A stretch of DNA of 52,585 nt from Gammaproteobacteria bacterium (GTDB lineage: Bacteria; Pseudomonadota; Gammaproteobacteria; GRL18), in NCBI GenBank assembly GCA_026196615.1, contig JAPHSW010000053.1, positions 1 through 52,585 on the forward strand. Direction: 5' to 3'. Positions 15,925-23,050 of the stretch are shown here, piece after piece. The position numbers and the translations under genes are program-made. The notes under the pieces were generated by a model. It saw only the letters and a list, made by a program, of their open reading frames with translations. It searched no databases and was not told where the DNA came from. Within the stretch, counting starts at the first letter, position 1. Each line of letters opens with the position of its first letter.

Positions 15925-16617
15925 TTGGCCAGAGAAATAGTTATAGTAGAAGATGAACCCGCAATAAGAGATAATTATACAGAAATGTTATTGCGACAGG
16001 GTTACAATGTCCATTCATATGCCTCCAAATCAGAAGCAGAAAAAGCCTTTAATGAAAGCATTCCAGATCTGGTTCTGCTTGATATTGGTCTGGAAGATGA
16101 AATTGAAGGTGGATTTGACCTATGTCGCCAACTTCGTCAAAAATCAGATACACTACCCATCATCTTTTTAACCGCACGTGATAATGACTTTGATACTATT
16201 TCAGGTTTACGTCTGGGCGCAGATGATTACTTGACTAAAGATATTAGCCTGCCCCATCTCAGTGCCCGTATATCTGCCCTATTTCGGCGTGTTAAAGCAA
16301 TTCATAGTGTTCCCCAACAAGAAAAACTCTTAATCATCAGTGATCTTAAGGTCAATTTAGAGCGTTTAGAAATTAGTTGGCAGGATCAGGTGGTTGACTT
16401 AAGTTTGACAGAGTTCTGGATGGTACATTCTCTGGTAAAACATCCTGGACATGTAAAGTCTCGTGAACAACTTATGGATGATGCTAGTACGGTTGTTGAT
16501 GACAGCACAATTACTTCCCACATAAAAAGAATACGACAGAAATTTAATCGGATAGAAAAATCATTCAACTGTATAGAAACTGTCTATGGTGCCGGCTATC
16601 GATGGCATTGTCACTAA
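15925..16617 (+). CDS. pdsR: OmpR-family response regulator, PdsR type (dedicated sortase system)
   Basis: A 230-residue regulator. An N-terminal receiver domain (about 3-115) has the acidic pocket EDE (9-11), phosphoacceptor Asp53 and conserved Lys105. A winged-helix DNA-binding domain (about 135-228) ends in TVYGAGYRW. Stretches such as IGLEDEIEGGFDLCRQLR and TEFWMVHSLVKHPGHVKSRE fit the 'proteobacterial dedicated sortase system response regulator' family as I remember it. The start is TTG (15925-15927) with a weak TAGGT site. It lies 25 bases before its kinase, so the two form an operon. No sortase or LPXTG-type target gene is in the window. Confidence 0.85.
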   Translation: MAREIVIVEDEPAIRDNYTEMLLRQGYNVHSYASKSEAEKAFNESIPDLVLLDIGLEDEIEGGFDLCRQLRQKSDTLPIIFLTARDNDFDTISGLRLGADDYLTKDISLPHLSARISALFRRVKAIHSVPQQEKLLIISDLKVNLERLEISWQDQVVDLSLTEFWMVHSLVKHPGHVKSREQLMDDASTVVDDSTITSHIKRIRQKFNRIEKSFNCIETVYGAGYRWHCH

Positions 16618-16642
16618 CCAGAGAAACTGAAGAATAGCTTAA

Positions 16643-18796
16643 ATGAAACTCAACCACGAGTTACGTGAAACTTATAAAAAACCGGGTTACCGTTTCATTG
16701 GTCTGCGTGGTAAGTTGCTACTTGCAACTCTGACTCTTTTTATTTTGCCTCTTGCTGGTCTAAGTTATTTAAAAGAATTAGAGCTTTTTCTAAAGCACAA
16801 TCATTCTGAATCCGTCCTGGTTATTGCTAAAACCATTTCTTCTGTTTTTCGTGATAATGCATCATTAATCACACAGAATCATTTGACTCAATCATCACAA
16901 GCCCCTATTTATTGCCATTCATTAAGTCATAAAAAGTATATTGATGGTTATAGTGATGACTGGTTCAGCCTACAAAACAGACAAAAGTACTTTTATCCAG
17001 ATATAAATCATTCCAATCCTTTAAATAAAAATATGTCTTTACTCTGTGCAAATGATGAACAGTATTATTATTTTCTGGTCACAGTGAAGAAAGTCAAGCC
17101 AAATGAAAATGAATCATTTGGCCAGATAGACTTTATAAAAAACAAAAGGAACCATTCAATTAGCTTTCAATATCTAGATTATGCACATCAGATACAAAAC
17201 TATAATTTTAAACTTACATCTCCCGGTTGGGTGACTGGCCAATTGAGTAGTCCATTTTTAAAAGGTAGTAAAAAAAGAATACAAGCACAATGGCAGGAAA
17301 ACAAACAGGGATTTATTTTAGAGTTTAAAATACCCGTTGGTCGTATTAATCACTATATGGCTTTTAAATTACAACAAGTTGATGATATTACTGAAAATGA
17401 GACTGATAAAATGGATACAATCATTACAACAGCCACATTGAATGAACTCTTAAGTCCAGCTGAACAATTAAACCCAATCCTAATGACTGATCCACTCAGT
17501 ATAATAAAACTGGATCAACTGGTCCCCACTAATACACGTTTATGGCTATTAAACAAAGAGCAATATATTAGTGCTAAATCAAATAAGTCATTTCACTCCA
17601 GTAAAACAAAAACAAATGATTTTTCATTATTAGCATTATACCGACGTTTTTATCTCTTAATTACGGATTATCCAGAACAACAATCCTTTTATGGAAGTAA
17701 TCAAGCTCAAATCAACAGTCAGGCAATTCAACAGACACTTAAAGGTCAATCAACAACTGACTGGCTTGATAGCCCTCATAATGACAAGATGGTCTTATCT
17801 GTCGCCACTCCCATATTTGATAATGATAACTCTATTATTGGCACATTAGTTCTTGAACAAGCTAATGAAACATTACTGGCTCTTCAAGACAAGACCTTTG
17901 AACGTATTCTTTTTTTAACACTTGTACTCTTTTTTTCAATCGTCCTGATCTTACTATTTTTATCCTCACGACTCTTAAAACGCATTATAAAATTACGTGA
18001 TGATACCAATTTAGCATTATCGAATGATGGTATTATTTCAAATCAGCTGTATAGAAATGATAATGATGAAATTGGTGATTTAGCACGAAGTTTCTCAACT
18101 TTATTATCCAGAGTTGATCACAATCAACAATATTTACGTTCACTGTCTGGAAAATTATCACATGAACTTAGAACACCATTAACTATCATTAAATCATCAC
18201 TTGAAAATATGGAAACATCTTGTTTTTCTGATGATAATAAAAAATATGCTCAAAGAGCTAATGATGGCTGTATAAGACTATCTAATTTGTTAAATCGTAT
18301 GAGTGAAGCCAGTCGACTTGAGCAGTCCATTAACTCAATAGAGAAAGAAGACATCGAGATAGTTGGTTTTATGCAAAACTATATTGAAACACTTCGAGTT
18401 GCTAATAATAATACAGAAATTATTTTTCAAACATCATTAACTCAACTTCACTCCAAAGTATCCCCTGAACTTATTGCTCAGCTATTAGATAAGCTTTTCA
18501 GTAACGCCTTTAGCTTTCATAAAGATTTGACACCTATTCGTTTGAGCTTGACGATAGAGAATAAAGAAATACTTATTGAGATAAATAATTTCGGTGATTT
18601 AATAGAAAGTGACAAGTTGAATTCTATTTTTTCTTCTCTCACAAGTTATAGAACAAAAAAAGGACAGGATGTTCATCTAGGACTGGGCTTATATATTTGC
18701 AATTTAATATGTCAGTTTCATAATGGTCAAATCAAAGCAATCAATCATAAAAACAATCACTCCGTTAGCTTTATTGTTAACATACCGATCAAATAA
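16643..18796 (+). CDS. pdsS: Sensor histidine kinase, PdsS type (dedicated sortase system)
   Basis: A 717-residue inner-membrane kinase partnered with the upstream regulator. TM1 is at about 26-45 and TM2 at about 421-443, enclosing a large periplasmic sensor. That sensor contains a carbohydrate-binding/DOMON-like motif (YIDGYSDDWFSL, about 92-103). A HAMP-like linker follows, then the HisKA box with His507 (LSHELRTPLTII) and a CA domain with N-box KLFSNAF and G2 box LGLGLYICNLI. The usual DxGxG box is replaced by NNFGDL, which I believe is normal for this family, but it means ATP binding should not be taken for granted. It converges with the HD-GYP gene 26 bases away. Confidence 0.83.
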   Translation: MKLNHELRETYKKPGYRFIGLRGKLLLATLTLFILPLAGLSYLKELELFLKHNHSESVLVIAKTISSVFRDNASLITQNHLTQSSQAPIYCHSLSHKKYIDGYSDDWFSLQNRQKYFYPDINHSNPLNKNMSLLCANDEQYYYFLVTVKKVKPNENESFGQIDFIKNKRNHSISFQYLDYAHQIQNYNFKLTSPGWVTGQLSSPFLKGSKKRIQAQWQENKQGFILEFKIPVGRINHYMAFKLQQVDDITENETDKMDTIITTATLNELLSPAEQLNPILMTDPLSIIKLDQLVPTNTRLWLLNKEQYISAKSNKSFHSSKTKTNDFSLLALYRRFYLLITDYPEQQSFYGSNQAQINSQAIQQTLKGQSTTDWLDSPHNDKMVLSVATPIFDNDNSIIGTLVLEQANETLLALQDKTFERILFLTLVLFFSIVLILLFLSSRLLKRIIKLRDDTNLALSNDGIISNQLYRNDNDEIGDLARSFSTLLSRVDHNQQYLRSLSGKLSHELRTPLTIIKSSLENMETSCFSDDNKKYAQRANDGCIRLSNLLNRMSEASRLEQSINSIEKEDIEIVGFMQNYIETLRVANNNTEIIFQTSLTQLHSKVSPELIAQLLDKLFSNAFSFHKDLTPIRLSLTIENKEILIEINNFGDLIESDKLNSIFSSLTSYRTKKGQDVHLGLGLYICNLICQFHNGQIKAINHKNNHSVSFIVNIPIK

Positions 18797-18822: not shown

Positions 18823-20379
18823 TTAATCCTTATAATGCTCAAGAATAGCAATAAACTCATCCGTATTATTCAAAAAAATATCAACCAGTTCTGGATCAAA
18901 ATGAGCACCGCGTTGTTTTTTATAAAGAGCAATTATATCTTCCATTAGCCATGCTTCTTTATAACAGCGCTTGCATGCCAATGCATCAAACACATCTGCC
19001 ACAGCTGTAATACGGCCATAGATATGAATATCATTACCTTTTTTATTTTCAGGGTAGCCACTACCATCCCACTTTTCATGATGCTCATATGAGATAATTG
19101 CACCTGCTTGAAGAATTTCACAATCAGATGTTCGTAACATATCATAACCAATTTTAGGGTGAGTCATCATTGTTTGCCATTCATGTGATTCCAACTTTCC
19201 AGGCTTATTTAAAATAGCATCTGAAATACCAATCTTACCTAAATCATGAAGAGGTGATGCCAATTTAAGAATTTGAATTTCATCTTTATCCATACCAATT
19301 TCTTTGGCTAAAAAAGCTGAAAACTCAGCAACACGTTTGATGTGATTACCCGTTTCTTTAGATCGTGTTTCAATTGATGTACCTAGTAAATTAACAATTT
19401 CACGTTGACCTTTTTCTATCTTTTGAGATAACAACAGGTTATCAAGACTAATCTCAGCTTGTTTAATATATAAATTAATTAAATTTTTATCAGTTTCCGA
19501 TAAATCAAGATTGCCACTAAAATAGAGAAGACGTTCATCTGATTCATTATCATGACAACATGAAAAATAAATAATACAAAATTCAGGTTGATAAATATTT
19601 GATTTGGTATCAAAACATTGCTGAAGTAATTGACAAGACGCTTCAGACAGAACATCTACTACATTTTTATTAAGATATTTTGAGAATTTTCCGGTAGATG
19701 AAATAACATTAATGTTATTTTCTTGTTTCTTAAGTTGCATTCTAGAAACATCACAAAGAAGTGCATATTCATTATTATGAAATAGCTTTGTGATGTGCAT
19801 AAGAGTTTCTGATAAAAATTCATCAATTGATTGTCTGGAGAACAATTCAGAAGTTGAATCTATTATTTTTTGCAGACCTACTTTGTTCCTCTCAATAGTA
19901 TTAATATCCTGAAATGACCGCAGAGAAGAATAGATTAAAGTAAACAATTTTTGAGAGGTCAGTTCAGTTTTTTCTTTATAATCATTAATATCATAATCAA
20001 CAATCACCTTTCTTTCAGGTGCCTGCCCTGGCTGCCCTGTCCTTAGAATGATACGAATAAATTTATTATTGAGTTCTTCTCGAACAAATTTGACCACATC
20101 AAGACCAGCGGTATCAGTTTCCATGACAACATCTTGAAGGATAATAGCAACATCTGGATTTTCAATAATTAGTTTTTTTGTTTCTTCACCAGTAAAAGCA
20201 CTAATAAATTCAAGTTTTTTTCCACTAAAACTAAAATGAGTTAACGCCAATTTTGTGATTTCATGAACTTGCTCTTCATCATCTGAAATTAAAATCTTCC
20301 ACGTATTATTTTGTTTTTTTTCTGCGCTCTTTGTAGTAAGCACTCCAGAGGAAGGCTTTGCAAAAATCATTTTGGACAT
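18823..20379 (-). CDS. Response regulator with REC, DUF3369 and HD-GYP domains (c-di-GMP phosphodiesterase)
   Basis: A 518-residue regulator. A receiver domain (about 27-150) has DDEE (33-36) and phosphoacceptor Asp83. A DUF3369/GAF-like middle region (about 165-315) precedes the HD-GYP domain (about 325-515). The catalytic HD pair is at 378-379, and the HHExxDGxGYP motif is intact at 433-443, so hydrolysis of cyclic di-GMP is expected. It is the last gene of a three-gene operon, three bases after the kinase stop. Its ribosome site GGGGGAG lies inside the kinase 3' end, implying coupled translation and a direct kinase-regulator pair. Confidence 0.92.
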   Translation of the reverse strand: MSKMIFAKPSSGVLTTKSAEKKQNNTWKILISDDEEQVHEITKLALTHFSFSGKKLEFISAFTGEETKKLIIENPDVAIILQDVVMETDTAGLDVVKFVREELNNKFIRIILRTGQPGQAPERKVIVDYDINDYKEKTELTSQKLFTLIYSSLRSFQDINTIERNKVGLQKIIDSTSELFSRQSIDEFLSETLMHITKLFHNNEYALLCDVSRMQLKKQENNINVISSTGKFSKYLNKNVVDVLSEASCQLLQQCFDTKSNIYQPEFCIIYFSCCHDNESDERLLYFSGNLDLSETDKNLINLYIKQAEISLDNLLLSQKIEKGQREIVNLLGTSIETRSKETGNHIKRVAEFSAFLAKEIGMDKDEIQILKLASPLHDLGKIGISDAILNKPGKLESHEWQTMMTHPKIGYDMLRTSDCEILQAGAIISYEHHEKWDGSGYPENKKGNDIHIYGRITAVADVFDALACKRCYKEAWLMEDIIALYKKQRGAHFDPELVDIFLNNTDEFIAILEHYKD

Positions 20380-20382
20380 ATC

Positions 20383-21999
20383 TCAGTTCTCCCCCTCACA
20401 CAAAACTACAGGAATAGTCATTTTAAACATAACTCCTTCCCCAAATTCACTACAACAGGAGATAGTTCCGTGTAACTGTTGAGTAATGATATTGTAAATA
20501 ATATGAGCCCCTAAACCAGTTCCTCCCTTATTACGTTTTGTTGTAACAAATGGCTCAAAGACACTATTAAGAATTTCTGGAGACATTCCCTGGCCATTAT
20601 CATGGTATTCAATACTCATATTACTTTCATCACACACCACGTTAATACTTATATGACCCGCATCAATTGACTCAAAACCATGAACAATACTATTAATAAT
20701 TAAATTTGAAAATACCTGATAAAAAGCACCTGGATAGCTATTAATGAATAGATTATCATCTGAATTTACTTCAATCACATGATGATGCTGTTTTAATTTT
20801 GGGTTAAGTGACTTAATAATTTCAAAAAAATAATCTTTAATATTAAAACAGCGTTTATCTTCAACACTTTGATCAACGGCCACTTTCTTAAAATTTTGAA
20901 CAATTTCTGTGGCTCTTTGAATGTTTTTCAGAATCATATCTGAACTGTCTTGAACAATTGTTAAAAAATCTTCAAAATCATCTTGAGTCATCACGTCCTT
21001 TTTATACGCTTTTTGTAATTGTTCATAACGCTCTTTAAGGAAGCTAGAAGCAGTCAGACAAATACCAATTGGGGTATTTACTTCATGAGCAATACCAGCA
21101 ACCAGACCACCGAGGGAAGCCATTTTTTCAGATTCAATCAACTGTGCCTGCATACTTTCTACCTGGTTCAATGTTTCAGTGATTTCATCATTTAAAATCT
21201 GTAATTTATTGGTGCGTTGTTTAACTTTTAATTCTAATGTTTCTTGATTTAGCTGTAATTGTTCTTTTTGATCAATCAATGTATTCTCATATTTCTCAGT
21301 TTGCTCTAACATTGCATTAAAGGTATCTGTTAAATCACCTATTTCATCATCACTGCTTTTTTCTGCACGTATAGTAAAATCTTTTTTGATTGCAACTTTA
21401 CCCGCTGTATTTTTTAACTGAAGAATGGGTTTAGAAATGAAATTTTGAATTCTATTAGCAATAAAATAACTCAAAATAATAACGACAATAAGAATAATTA
21501 TATATTGCTCCATACCTTCATAAAATTCTTCAAATACAAAAGAATCATTCGCAACAATATAAATAAAACCAATCTTGGAATTATCTAAAATAATTTCTGC
21601 TCCCCAGTGCAATTGATGCTCTTTATAAACACCTTTAAAGAGATTATTTTCTACTTTGTCCAGGCATTTTAATTGTTCAATATCTTTATCAGCAGGTCTC
21701 TTATAATCTGCAACAATAACAAAATCATTAGTGTATAAGCATGCTAACTCAATGTGTTTCATATGTTTAAGCGCATTGAGATTTTTTTCTGCCTGCAAAG
21801 TATCCATAAAGGCTAATGCAGCTGTACTTCTTTCAGCAATGACATCACCTAAAACGGTTATATTCTCAATAGCACGTGTTTTAATATTTTTAATATTAAA
21901 ATAAGAAATTGTGGAGATAGCGATAAGTAAAGTAATAATAATTGATGAAATGATCATCAATATAAGCTTCTCGCGAATTGAAAAACGTATATTTATCAT
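20383..21999 (-). CDS. Hybrid-type-free sensor histidine kinase (TM-periplasmic-TM-HAMP-HisKA-HATPase)
   Basis: A 538-residue membrane kinase. TM1 is at about 11-33. A periplasmic domain of about 125 residues follows (34-160), with RSTAALAFMDTLQAEKNLNAL resembling the CHASE8 domain found in YfiN-type proteins. TM2 is at about 165-183, then HAMP (about 185-240), a coiled coil (240-290), HisKA with His305 (GIAHEVNTP), and HATPase with NLIINS, DNGQGM and GGTGLG boxes intact. Its start overlaps the YfiR stop (TAATG) and its stop is three bases from the HD-GYP start. It most likely phosphorylates that regulator. Confidence 0.92.
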   Translation of the reverse strand: MINIRFSIREKLILMIISSIIITLLIAISTISYFNIKNIKTRAIENITVLGDVIAERSTAALAFMDTLQAEKNLNALKHMKHIELACLYTNDFVIVADYKRPADKDIEQLKCLDKVENNLFKGVYKEHQLHWGAEIILDNSKIGFIYIVANDSFVFEEFYEGMEQYIIILIVVIILSYFIANRIQNFISKPILQLKNTAGKVAIKKDFTIRAEKSSDDEIGDLTDTFNAMLEQTEKYENTLIDQKEQLQLNQETLELKVKQRTNKLQILNDEITETLNQVESMQAQLIESEKMASLGGLVAGIAHEVNTPIGICLTASSFLKERYEQLQKAYKKDVMTQDDFEDFLTIVQDSSDMILKNIQRATEIVQNFKKVAVDQSVEDKRCFNIKDYFFEIIKSLNPKLKQHHHVIEVNSDDNLFINSYPGAFYQVFSNLIINSIVHGFESIDAGHISINVVCDESNMSIEYHDNGQGMSPEILNSVFEPFVTTKRNKGGTGLGAHIIYNIITQQLHGTISCCSEFGEGVMFKMTIPVVLCEGEN

Positions 22000-22586
22000 T
22001 ATTGACTACTCACTATTGTTGCTACTTCAAGTAAATTTGAATTGATTTTAAAACCAGCGGCTTTAGCAACACTCAAGTTAATTTCTACCTTAACTTTTCC
22101 TTTTTTTGTGACCATACCAATCATTCCTCCCATAGAGCAAAAGGCATTCATGTCACTAATGGAAAGAATGTTATATTTTTTTATTTTGGGTAATAGTTGA
22201 GAAATTAAATTTTTTTCTGCTTTATCAATATAAAGTAAATGACATTTGGAAATATCATATGGTTCTGAAATTTTTCGGAATGTTAAAAGGTGCCCTTTAA
22301 CTTCTTTACCTACTACAGGGCTAAAGGCTTTAATGAATTGATTATTTTTATTAATAACACAGACAACAATGGGTTTTGAGGATTCGATTCTCTGATTTAA
22401 AGGCCAGTCAATAAAACGAATGAAATTGAAAACATAGGAAGCTTTGATTTTATCTTCATTGGTAATATCCCTGGCATAAGTTGTATTAAAAAATGAAGAA
22501 AAAAAGATAAAATATAAAAAAATAAGCTGGAAGCAAATTCCTTCTTTGCGTTTTAGCCATGAAATAGAAAATGGGAATACTCGCAT
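21999..22586 (-). CDS. YfiR family periplasmic protein
   Basis: A 195-residue exported protein of the YfiR (DUF4154) family. Recognisable segments are IKASYVFNFIRFIDWP, PIVVCVINKN, a central CHLLYIDKAEK and the closing VKVEINLSVAKAAGFKINSNLLEVA. A signal peptide ends near NTTYA. In Pseudomonas, YfiR is the periplasmic repressor of the CHASE8-containing diguanylate cyclase YfiN. Here the downstream partner is a histidine kinase with a CHASE8-like periplasmic domain. I prefer the ATG at 22584-22586; a GTG start 30 bases upstream is also open. It is the first gene of the kinase/HD-GYP operon, with a one-base overlap. Confidence 0.88.
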   Translation of the reverse strand: MRVFPFSISWLKRKEGICFQLIFLYFIFFSSFFNTTYARDITNEDKIKASYVFNFIRFIDWPLNQRIESSKPIVVCVINKNNQFIKAFSPVVGKEVKGHLLTFRKISEPYDISKCHLLYIDKAEKNLISQLLPKIKKYNILSISDMNAFCSMGGMIGMVTKKGKVKVEINLSVAKAAGFKINSNLLEVATIVSSQ

Positions 22587-23036
22587 CGATTTCTTATATA
22601 GTTTGACTGATTTCACGAAAATGTACTTTAAGACACATTTAAACCACTCAGTTTATTTTTTCTCAAAGTTGATTTTTACATCAATAAAATTACCGACGCT
22701 TCATAACGTCCTAATTTTAAGGTATTACAAATATAACCAACAAGAATATTAATATACTAATACTAGTTTAATAACAATTATTGTCAAGCAACAAACAAGA
22801 AAAGCATTTTTATTATTAACATTTCAAAAACAACAAGTCATTGTTTTATTAGTTTTTTTTAAAAAAAACTTAAATAAATACATTAAAATTTGTAATATTT
22901 ACCATAAATAGACTAATTATAACTTTTTATAAATATCTTTGATTCCAGATTTAAATTGATAGAACGTGCAATTAATTCTAAAATCAGTTATAAGAATAAC
23001 GAATGACACAACTTCCTCATAACCTATACCGTTAGC
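22587..23036. other. Divergent intergenic region, yfiR operon / HDOD gene
   Basis: About 450 bases, among the most AT-rich in the window, with homopolymer A and T tracts around 22850-22870. It must carry promoters for both divergent units. I could not single out a -35/-10 pair and see no RNA gene. Confidence 0.35.
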
Positions 23037-23050
23037 AAACCATATGGTTT
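23037..23050. repeat. 14-base perfect palindrome across the HDOD start codon
   Basis: AAACCATATGGTTT is an exact palindrome centred on the start ATG (23044-23046). No Shine-Dalgarno site is visible before it. It could be a protein-binding site or a small hairpin blocking initiation. Chance is also possible in such AT-rich DNA. Confidence 0.4.

Follow-up and report, generated by a model that had tools for sequence, protein, structure and literature searches.

What does the periplasmic protein YfiR, known as a brake on the synthesis of cyclic di-GMP (c-di-GMP), control when its gene adjoins a histidine kinase and an HD-GYP regulator? This arrangement was found in contig JAPHSW010000053.1 of assembly GCA_026196615.1, from a Gammaproteobacteria bacterium, and the whole 52,585-nt stretch that was studied is called the window below. 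On its minus strand, three genes form a compact unit encoding YfiR, a CHASE8-HAMP-histidine kinase and a REC-DUF3369-HD-GYP response regulator. With moderate confidence, this trio is considered to be a two-component system that takes its input from YfiR and sets the activity of a c-di-GMP phosphodiesterase, the sensor having been fitted onto a kinase lineage that was already paired with REC-DUF3369 proteins. The features concerned are:

21999–22586, minus strand: YfiR-like periplasmic protein (DUF4154) with an N-terminal signal peptide, ATG start; an alternative GTG start at 22616 would give a gene of 21999–22616, minus strand

20383–21999, minus strand: sensor histidine kinase of 538 aa, transmembrane-CHASE8-transmembrane-HAMP-DHp(His305)-HATPase, assigned from Pfam and the H, N and G boxes

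18823–20379, minus strand: response regulator of 518 aa, REC(Asp83)-DUF3369-HD-GYP, assigned from Pfam, alignment with PDB 4mcw and individual residues

21808–21822, minus strand: AALAF, kinase residues 60–64, the equivalent by alignment of AAVVF, the YfiR-docking motif of YfiN

22617–23043, no strand: spacer separating yfiR from the divergently oriented HDOD gene; comparison with relatives that have an empty site puts one border of the trio here

The yfiR and kinase genes overlap by 1 base and 3 bases separate the kinase stop from the start of the HD-GYP gene, which bears out a first-pass annotation that had described the three genes as overlapping or nearly touching. The product of yfiR is a member of its family, scoring 127.7 bits against Pfam PF13689 (DUF4154/YfiR; cut-off 24.9), and it could be aligned with YfiR from PDB entry 4yn7. 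The nearest NCBIfam model was NF053591 (TOL_0243 family YfiR-like), with 119 bits, below the cut-off of 125. Cys86, Cys125 and Cys160 correspond to Cys71, Cys110 and Cys145 of Pseudomonas aeruginosa YfiR, and a Gly stands at the position of Cys152, so that the second disulphide (Cys145–Cys152) is lacking. This second pair was also missing from most of the YfiR homologues surveyed and therefore does not define the wider family.

The kinase matched Pfam CHASE8 (53.7 bits), HAMP (41.6 bits) and HATPase_c (73.2 bits) above the cut-offs; the periplasmic domain, earlier called 'CHASE8-like', is a true CHASE8, and it is bracketed by two hydrophobic stretches (residues ~6–36 and ~159–188). HisKA scored below the Pfam cut-off (22.1 versus 26.9 bits), and the H-box HEVNTP, containing His305, is present together with the N and G boxes. 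The output is DHp-HATPase, and no GGDEF domain is found in the trio. The nearest NCBIfam model was NF053592 (HK_near_YfiR_like), matched across its full length at 156.4 bits; its cut-off of 194 was passed by one genome only in the family of the window genome. In YfiN, AAVVF is the genetically defined docking site for YfiR (PMC3375315). The window kinase has AALAF(M)D at the aligned position, the kinases of genomes G006 and G022 (both relatives) also have AALAF, that of the more distant G048 has AALLF, and 115 of the 123 CHASE8 rows in the alignment had the Phe of the motif. At this position, the closest kinases without a YfiR partner (L101 and L102) carry DALIS and DALVS. As judged by this alignment, the window kinase retains the predicted YfiR-docking motif and its nearest YfiR-less relatives are without it, which makes these sister kinases natural built-in controls. 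The locus thus has the make-up of a YfiR–YfiN[PAS/HAMP] core, in which YfiR adjoins a CHASE8-HAMP transmembrane partner with a docking motif.

The regulator matched DUF3369 (PF11849, 131.9 bits) and HD_5 (PF13487, 98.2 bits) above the Pfam cut-offs. Pfam Response_reg gave no match at E ≤ 1e-3, and the receiver was identified by NCBIfam PhoB-type models and by weak Response_reg matches in homologues; its motifs are SDDEE, Asp83, LRTGQ and YKEK. The metal positions of the HD-GYP domain (E-H, HD, H, HH, D) and the GYP motif are identical to those of Persephonella PmGH (PDB 4mcw), and the earlier description of an intact active site was correct. In domain order and in these residues, the protein belongs to the REC-DUF3369-HD-GYP class, of which Vibrio cholerae VCA0210 is an active c-di-GMP phosphodiesterase (PMC4212101). 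A function without c-di-GMP hydrolysis, through protein contact or another cyclic dinucleotide, is regarded as quite improbable: the cyclic GMP-AMP (cGAMP)-specific HD-GYP protein 5z7c was among the PDB matches at 134 bits, but the best match was the c-di-GMP enzyme PmGH at 220 bits, and VCA0210 also argues for hydrolysis. By analogy, the window regulator would then be a c-di-GMP phosphodiesterase. The DUF3369 profile found no credible relative in the PDB. Plasmid searches returned DUF3369-HD-GYP relatives with up to ~45% identity across most of the query, and no YfiR was annotated near the one on a Shewanella baltica plasmid, which was the one annotated neighbourhood inspected.

The origin of the kinase was then considered. 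Its core is 38–51% identical to kinases without YfiR, several of them beside REC-DUF3369(-HD-GYP) genes, and shares ~20–25% identity with the remaining CHASE8 kinases found at YfiR loci, G048 being the exception at 42.5%. In a tree of 131 kinase domains, the window kinase was placed in a 26-member clade (support 100/99), and the ordinary YfiR-CHASE8 hybrid kinases fell outside it. Note that the clade members were gathered by similarity to the window kinase, so its content is partly selection, while the exclusion of the ordinary hybrids is unaffected. Clade kinases beside REC-DUF3369(-HD-GYP) genes have other inputs, such as a Tll0287-like sensor domain in G010, and further examples were found in G006, G016 and contig C237 of the window genome. 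The kinase is therefore of mosaic ancestry, with a core unlike that of the usual YfiR hybrids and like that of REC-DUF3369-adjacent kinases with other sensors, from which it appears that a YfiR/CHASE8 sensor was grafted onto a pre-existing pair of kinase and REC-DUF3369 phosphodiesterase. In their periplasmic parts, the window and G048 kinases do not group as closest relatives, and their cores lie in different supported subclades, so that this grafting probably happened twice, in the window lineage and in G048. A scan of genome contigs with the window kinase returned nothing closer than remote kinases from other phyla, and a class-wide protein search, in which three candidates were scored per genome, was negative, a weak result. 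Elsewhere this core has been combined with yet another sensor: at L101, L102 (165–2625), L103 and L122, a kinase of the lineage comes after a phosphonate-binding-type periplasmic protein in place of YfiR.

The kinase and receiver subfamilies co-diverge. In 13 adjacent kinase/REC-DUF3369 pairs, the distances among the kinases were correlated with those among the receivers (Mantel r 0.55, p 0.0005), also when a close orthologue was left out (r 0.45, p 0.004); the test was uncorrected for organism relatedness, and part of the correlation may for that reason be shared descent. Whatever the role of YfiR, this correlation is support for a cognate relationship between the window kinase and regulator. 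Together with the docking motif and the adjacency of the two subfamilies elsewhere, it is in line with the first-pass reading, in which YfiR provides the input to a CHASE8 kinase whose cognate REC-DUF3369-HD-GYP regulator is the output.

In the proposed mechanism, YfiR would be exported and would dock onto the AALAF patch in the kinase's CHASE8 domain, in the way that YfiR binds AAVVF in YfiN. A periplasmic or envelope change would alter this binding and shift the balance between kinase and phosphatase, phosphate would pass from His305 of the kinase to Asp83 of the regulator, and the c-di-GMP phosphodiesterase would be switched, an active kinase giving lower c-di-GMP. That loss of YfiR binding lowers c-di-GMP is a guess by analogy; YfiR binding, phosphotransfer and hydrolysis are likewise modelled on YfiN, RpfG and VCA0210. 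The opposite sign, under which YfiR would keep the kinase on (or hold it out of a phosphatase state), or phosphorylation would inhibit the HD-GYP domain, so that loss of YfiR raises c-di-GMP with the same net effect as in YfiBNR, is on the unlikely side. In its favour, the sign is not fixed by the sequence, HAMP-linked sensors can operate in both directions, and YfiN itself has never been a kinase. Analogy points away from it, given that YfiR is a repressor that holds YfiN off (PMC3375315) and that phosphorylation by RpfC activates RpfG (PMC4212101). If YfiR does gate a phosphodiesterase through a phosphorelay, one type of periplasmic signal would raise or lower c-di-GMP according to the output plugged in. 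The locus appears to be a clear natural case in which a sensor module was transferred to a ready-made kinase–regulator pair.

To place the trio among its relatives, 118 YfiR loci were surveyed, 49 from the family of the window genome and 69 from a class sample of 369 genomes. Profiles built for this analysis were applied to mechanical open reading frames; broken contigs will hide some partners, and no CHASE8 partner was called at 22 of the 69 class loci. Most CHASE8 partners were either hybrid kinases, in many cases with a gene for a REC-GGDEF or REC-GGDEF-EAL protein coming next, or themselves GGDEF or GGDEF-EAL proteins. A DUF3369 regulator adjoined the YfiR pair at three of the 118 loci: in the window, in G022 (L043) and in G048 (L218). 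In the class sample, DUF3369 was found in 20 and NF053591-type YfiR in 53 of the 369 genomes, and the two were neighbours in the window genome and G048 only. In a phylum sample of 388 genomes, 91 had DUF3369 and 94 had DUF4154; among the matches listed, whose positions were compared by eye, the window alone had such a pair at a distance of 10 kb or less. The G048 locus (contig C14, 5029–11635, plus strand) encodes a TonB-dependent receptor, YfiR, a CHASE8 kinase, a REC-DUF3369 protein without HD-GYP, a REC-kinase and a lone REC; here YfiR and DUF3369 are brought together a second time, with no evident final output.

In distant YfiR/YfiN systems, YfiB is mostly missing and GGDEF-EAL, Hpt or sensor histidine kinases take the place of the GGDEF domain, and YfiR with the PAS/HAMP part of YfiN has been proposed as a modular core (Malone et al. 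2012, PMC3375315). Because of these kinase outputs and of NF053592, the joining of YfiR to a kinase is not new, a point on which the first-pass annotation needs correcting. HD-GYP is not mentioned in the main text of PMC3375315, and in literature naming both 'YfiR' and 'HD-GYP', titles and abstract openings gave no such link. The pairing of YfiR with a CHASE8 kinase being known, the DUF3369 partner is the unusual part and a rare output. Likewise, the contrast drawn earlier, of a kinase and phosphodiesterase instead of a cyclase, is one of many outputs, among which GGDEF and GGDEF-EAL neighbours are commoner, in the window genome as well.

The trio shares with YfiBNR, AwsXRO and HmsCDE a YfiR family protein and a CHASE8/PAS and HAMP partner with an AAxxF docking motif, and differs in that its output is a histidine kinase and a separate HD-GYP regulator, not a fused GGDEF domain, and in lacking YfiB. 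Like the YfiR–YfiN[PAS/HAMP] kinase cores (NF053591/NF053592), it has no YfiB and a yfiR gene followed by one for a periplasmic-domain/HAMP/histidine kinase; unlike them, it scores just under both NCBIfam cut-offs and its kinase core is not of the lineage of the common hybrids. Operons of YfiR, CHASE8-kinase-REC and REC-GGDEF(-EAL), as on C237 and in many relatives, have the sensor pair and two-component logic acting on c-di-GMP, but end in synthesis or bifunctional enzymes, and their hybrid kinase is only distantly related. REC-DUF3369-HD-GYP proteins with neighbouring kinases (G000:C237 36.9–40.7 kb; VCA0210) have the same regulator architecture, with the same kinase lineage at several loci, whereas their sensors are different (Tll0287-like, phosphonate-binding protein partner, others) and YfiR is absent. 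RpfC/RpfG is alike in that a histidine kinase probably switches on a REC-HD-GYP phosphodiesterase by phosphorylating it. Differences are that RpfC is of the hybrid type and senses diffusible signal factor (DSF), with neither YfiR nor CHASE8, and that RpfG is without DUF3369. The window kinase stops after the HATPase domain and has no hybrid REC or Hpt of the RpfC type.

The history of the site was read from relatives. The trio is flanked by a sortase-system kinase on one side and the HDOD gene on the other, and in seven relatives (G001, G003, G004, G007, G012, G013 and G014) these two genes are adjacent, 91–197 bp apart, with no trio. G020, of another genus, has a relic of HD-GYP residues 436–479 (74% identical, E 1e-23), and G005 has one of residues 498–518 in the same place and orientation. 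In G006, YfiR and the kinase are kept (72–79% identical) and the HD-GYP gene is cut to about its first ten codons, the DNA match running 28 bases into the gene and then ending. Given these relics, the empty sites and the syntenic trio in G022, the trio probably goes back to the common ancestor of two genera, with repeated losses since; it seems old but dispensable. Where kept, the three genes are under purifying selection, with ratios of non-synonymous to synonymous substitution (dN/dS) of 0.05–0.13 for the kinase, 0.12 for YfiR and, between the window and G022, 0.19 for the HD-GYP protein, synonymous sites being near saturation. Lack of conservation in related genomes, which the first-pass annotation had named as grounds for refutation, was thus half borne out: the full trio occurs in two species only and three relatives have relics of its loss, although G048 has an independent partial version.

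Several observations weigh against a YfiR-driven phosphodiesterase system. The full trio with HD-GYP was found in two species only, the window's and G022, and yfiR in G022 carries a frameshift, which is either real or an assembly error. The YfiB lipoprotein gene is absent from the locus, where the neighbours are the HDOD and sortase-system kinase genes, Phe162 of P. aeruginosa YfiR is replaced by Val, and single-sequence structure prediction was unusable (mean predicted local distance difference test score, pLDDT, 32 for the HD-GYP protein and 42 for the CHASE8 domain). Since YfiR and the kinase persist in G006 without the HD-GYP gene, it may be that the kinase acts on something else in that genome, or that the gene was lost recently. 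It is accordingly conceivable, if unlikely, that YfiR and the kinase form a unit with another regulator as main target and the HD-GYP gene as a weak or secondary one, and G006 and the window genome do carry other DUF3369 and REC-GGDEF regulators. Against this stand the adjacency of the kinase and REC-DUF3369 subfamilies at many unlinked loci, their co-divergence, and the purifying selection on the HD-GYP gene. The repeated losses and the frameshift could also be read to mean that the genes adjoin by chance or are a decaying relic that no longer has a function, but with three intact open reading frames, overlapping or nearly so, purifying selection and syntenic orthologues in another genus, this is very improbable.

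The window genome holds four genes for YfiR and four for CHASE8 proteins, and each YfiR gene is paired with a CHASE8 gene. On C237 (L039), YfiR is followed by a CHASE8-kinase-REC and a REC-GGDEF protein. If both loci are active, one bacterium would couple YfiR-type sensing to both synthesis and removal of c-di-GMP. It is tentatively suggested, with some doubt, that paralogous YfiRs push c-di-GMP both ways, to synthesis from C237 and to removal from the window, the removal branch having arisen by graft, with at least two grafts.

Other features of the surveyed YfiR loci were noted. At 50 of the 118 loci, the gene immediately upstream of YfiR, in the same orientation, is TonB-dependent-receptor-like, which suggests an outer-membrane input in place of YfiB; the window trio is without such a gene, and no report of a link between TonB-dependent receptors and YfiR was found in the literature searched. 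Locus L214 (G055:C215) has two YfiR genes on one strand, separated by ~3 kb that encode a 729-aa protein, and many copies of YfiR occur in G343 (7 matches) and G055 (9 matches). At L233, L242 and L247 (family f105), YfiR lies beside DAHL-sensor kinases (by Pfam on L233), not CHASE8 kinases, and the kinase gene is upstream of YfiR.

Convergent with the trio, window positions 15925–18796 (plus strand) encode the response regulator and kinase of a 'proteobacterial dedicated sortase system', matching TIGR03787 above its cut-off and TIGR03785 at 462 bits (cut-off 612). This kinase was ruled out as the partner of the HD-GYP gene, its kinase domain lying elsewhere in the tree and its own regulator adjoining it. 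On the other side, a stretch of 30–40 bp upstream of the HDOD gene (22959–22994, ACGTGCAATTATTGCAAAAATCAGTTATAAG-like) is conserved in relatives without the trio and is probably the HDOD promoter or an operator.

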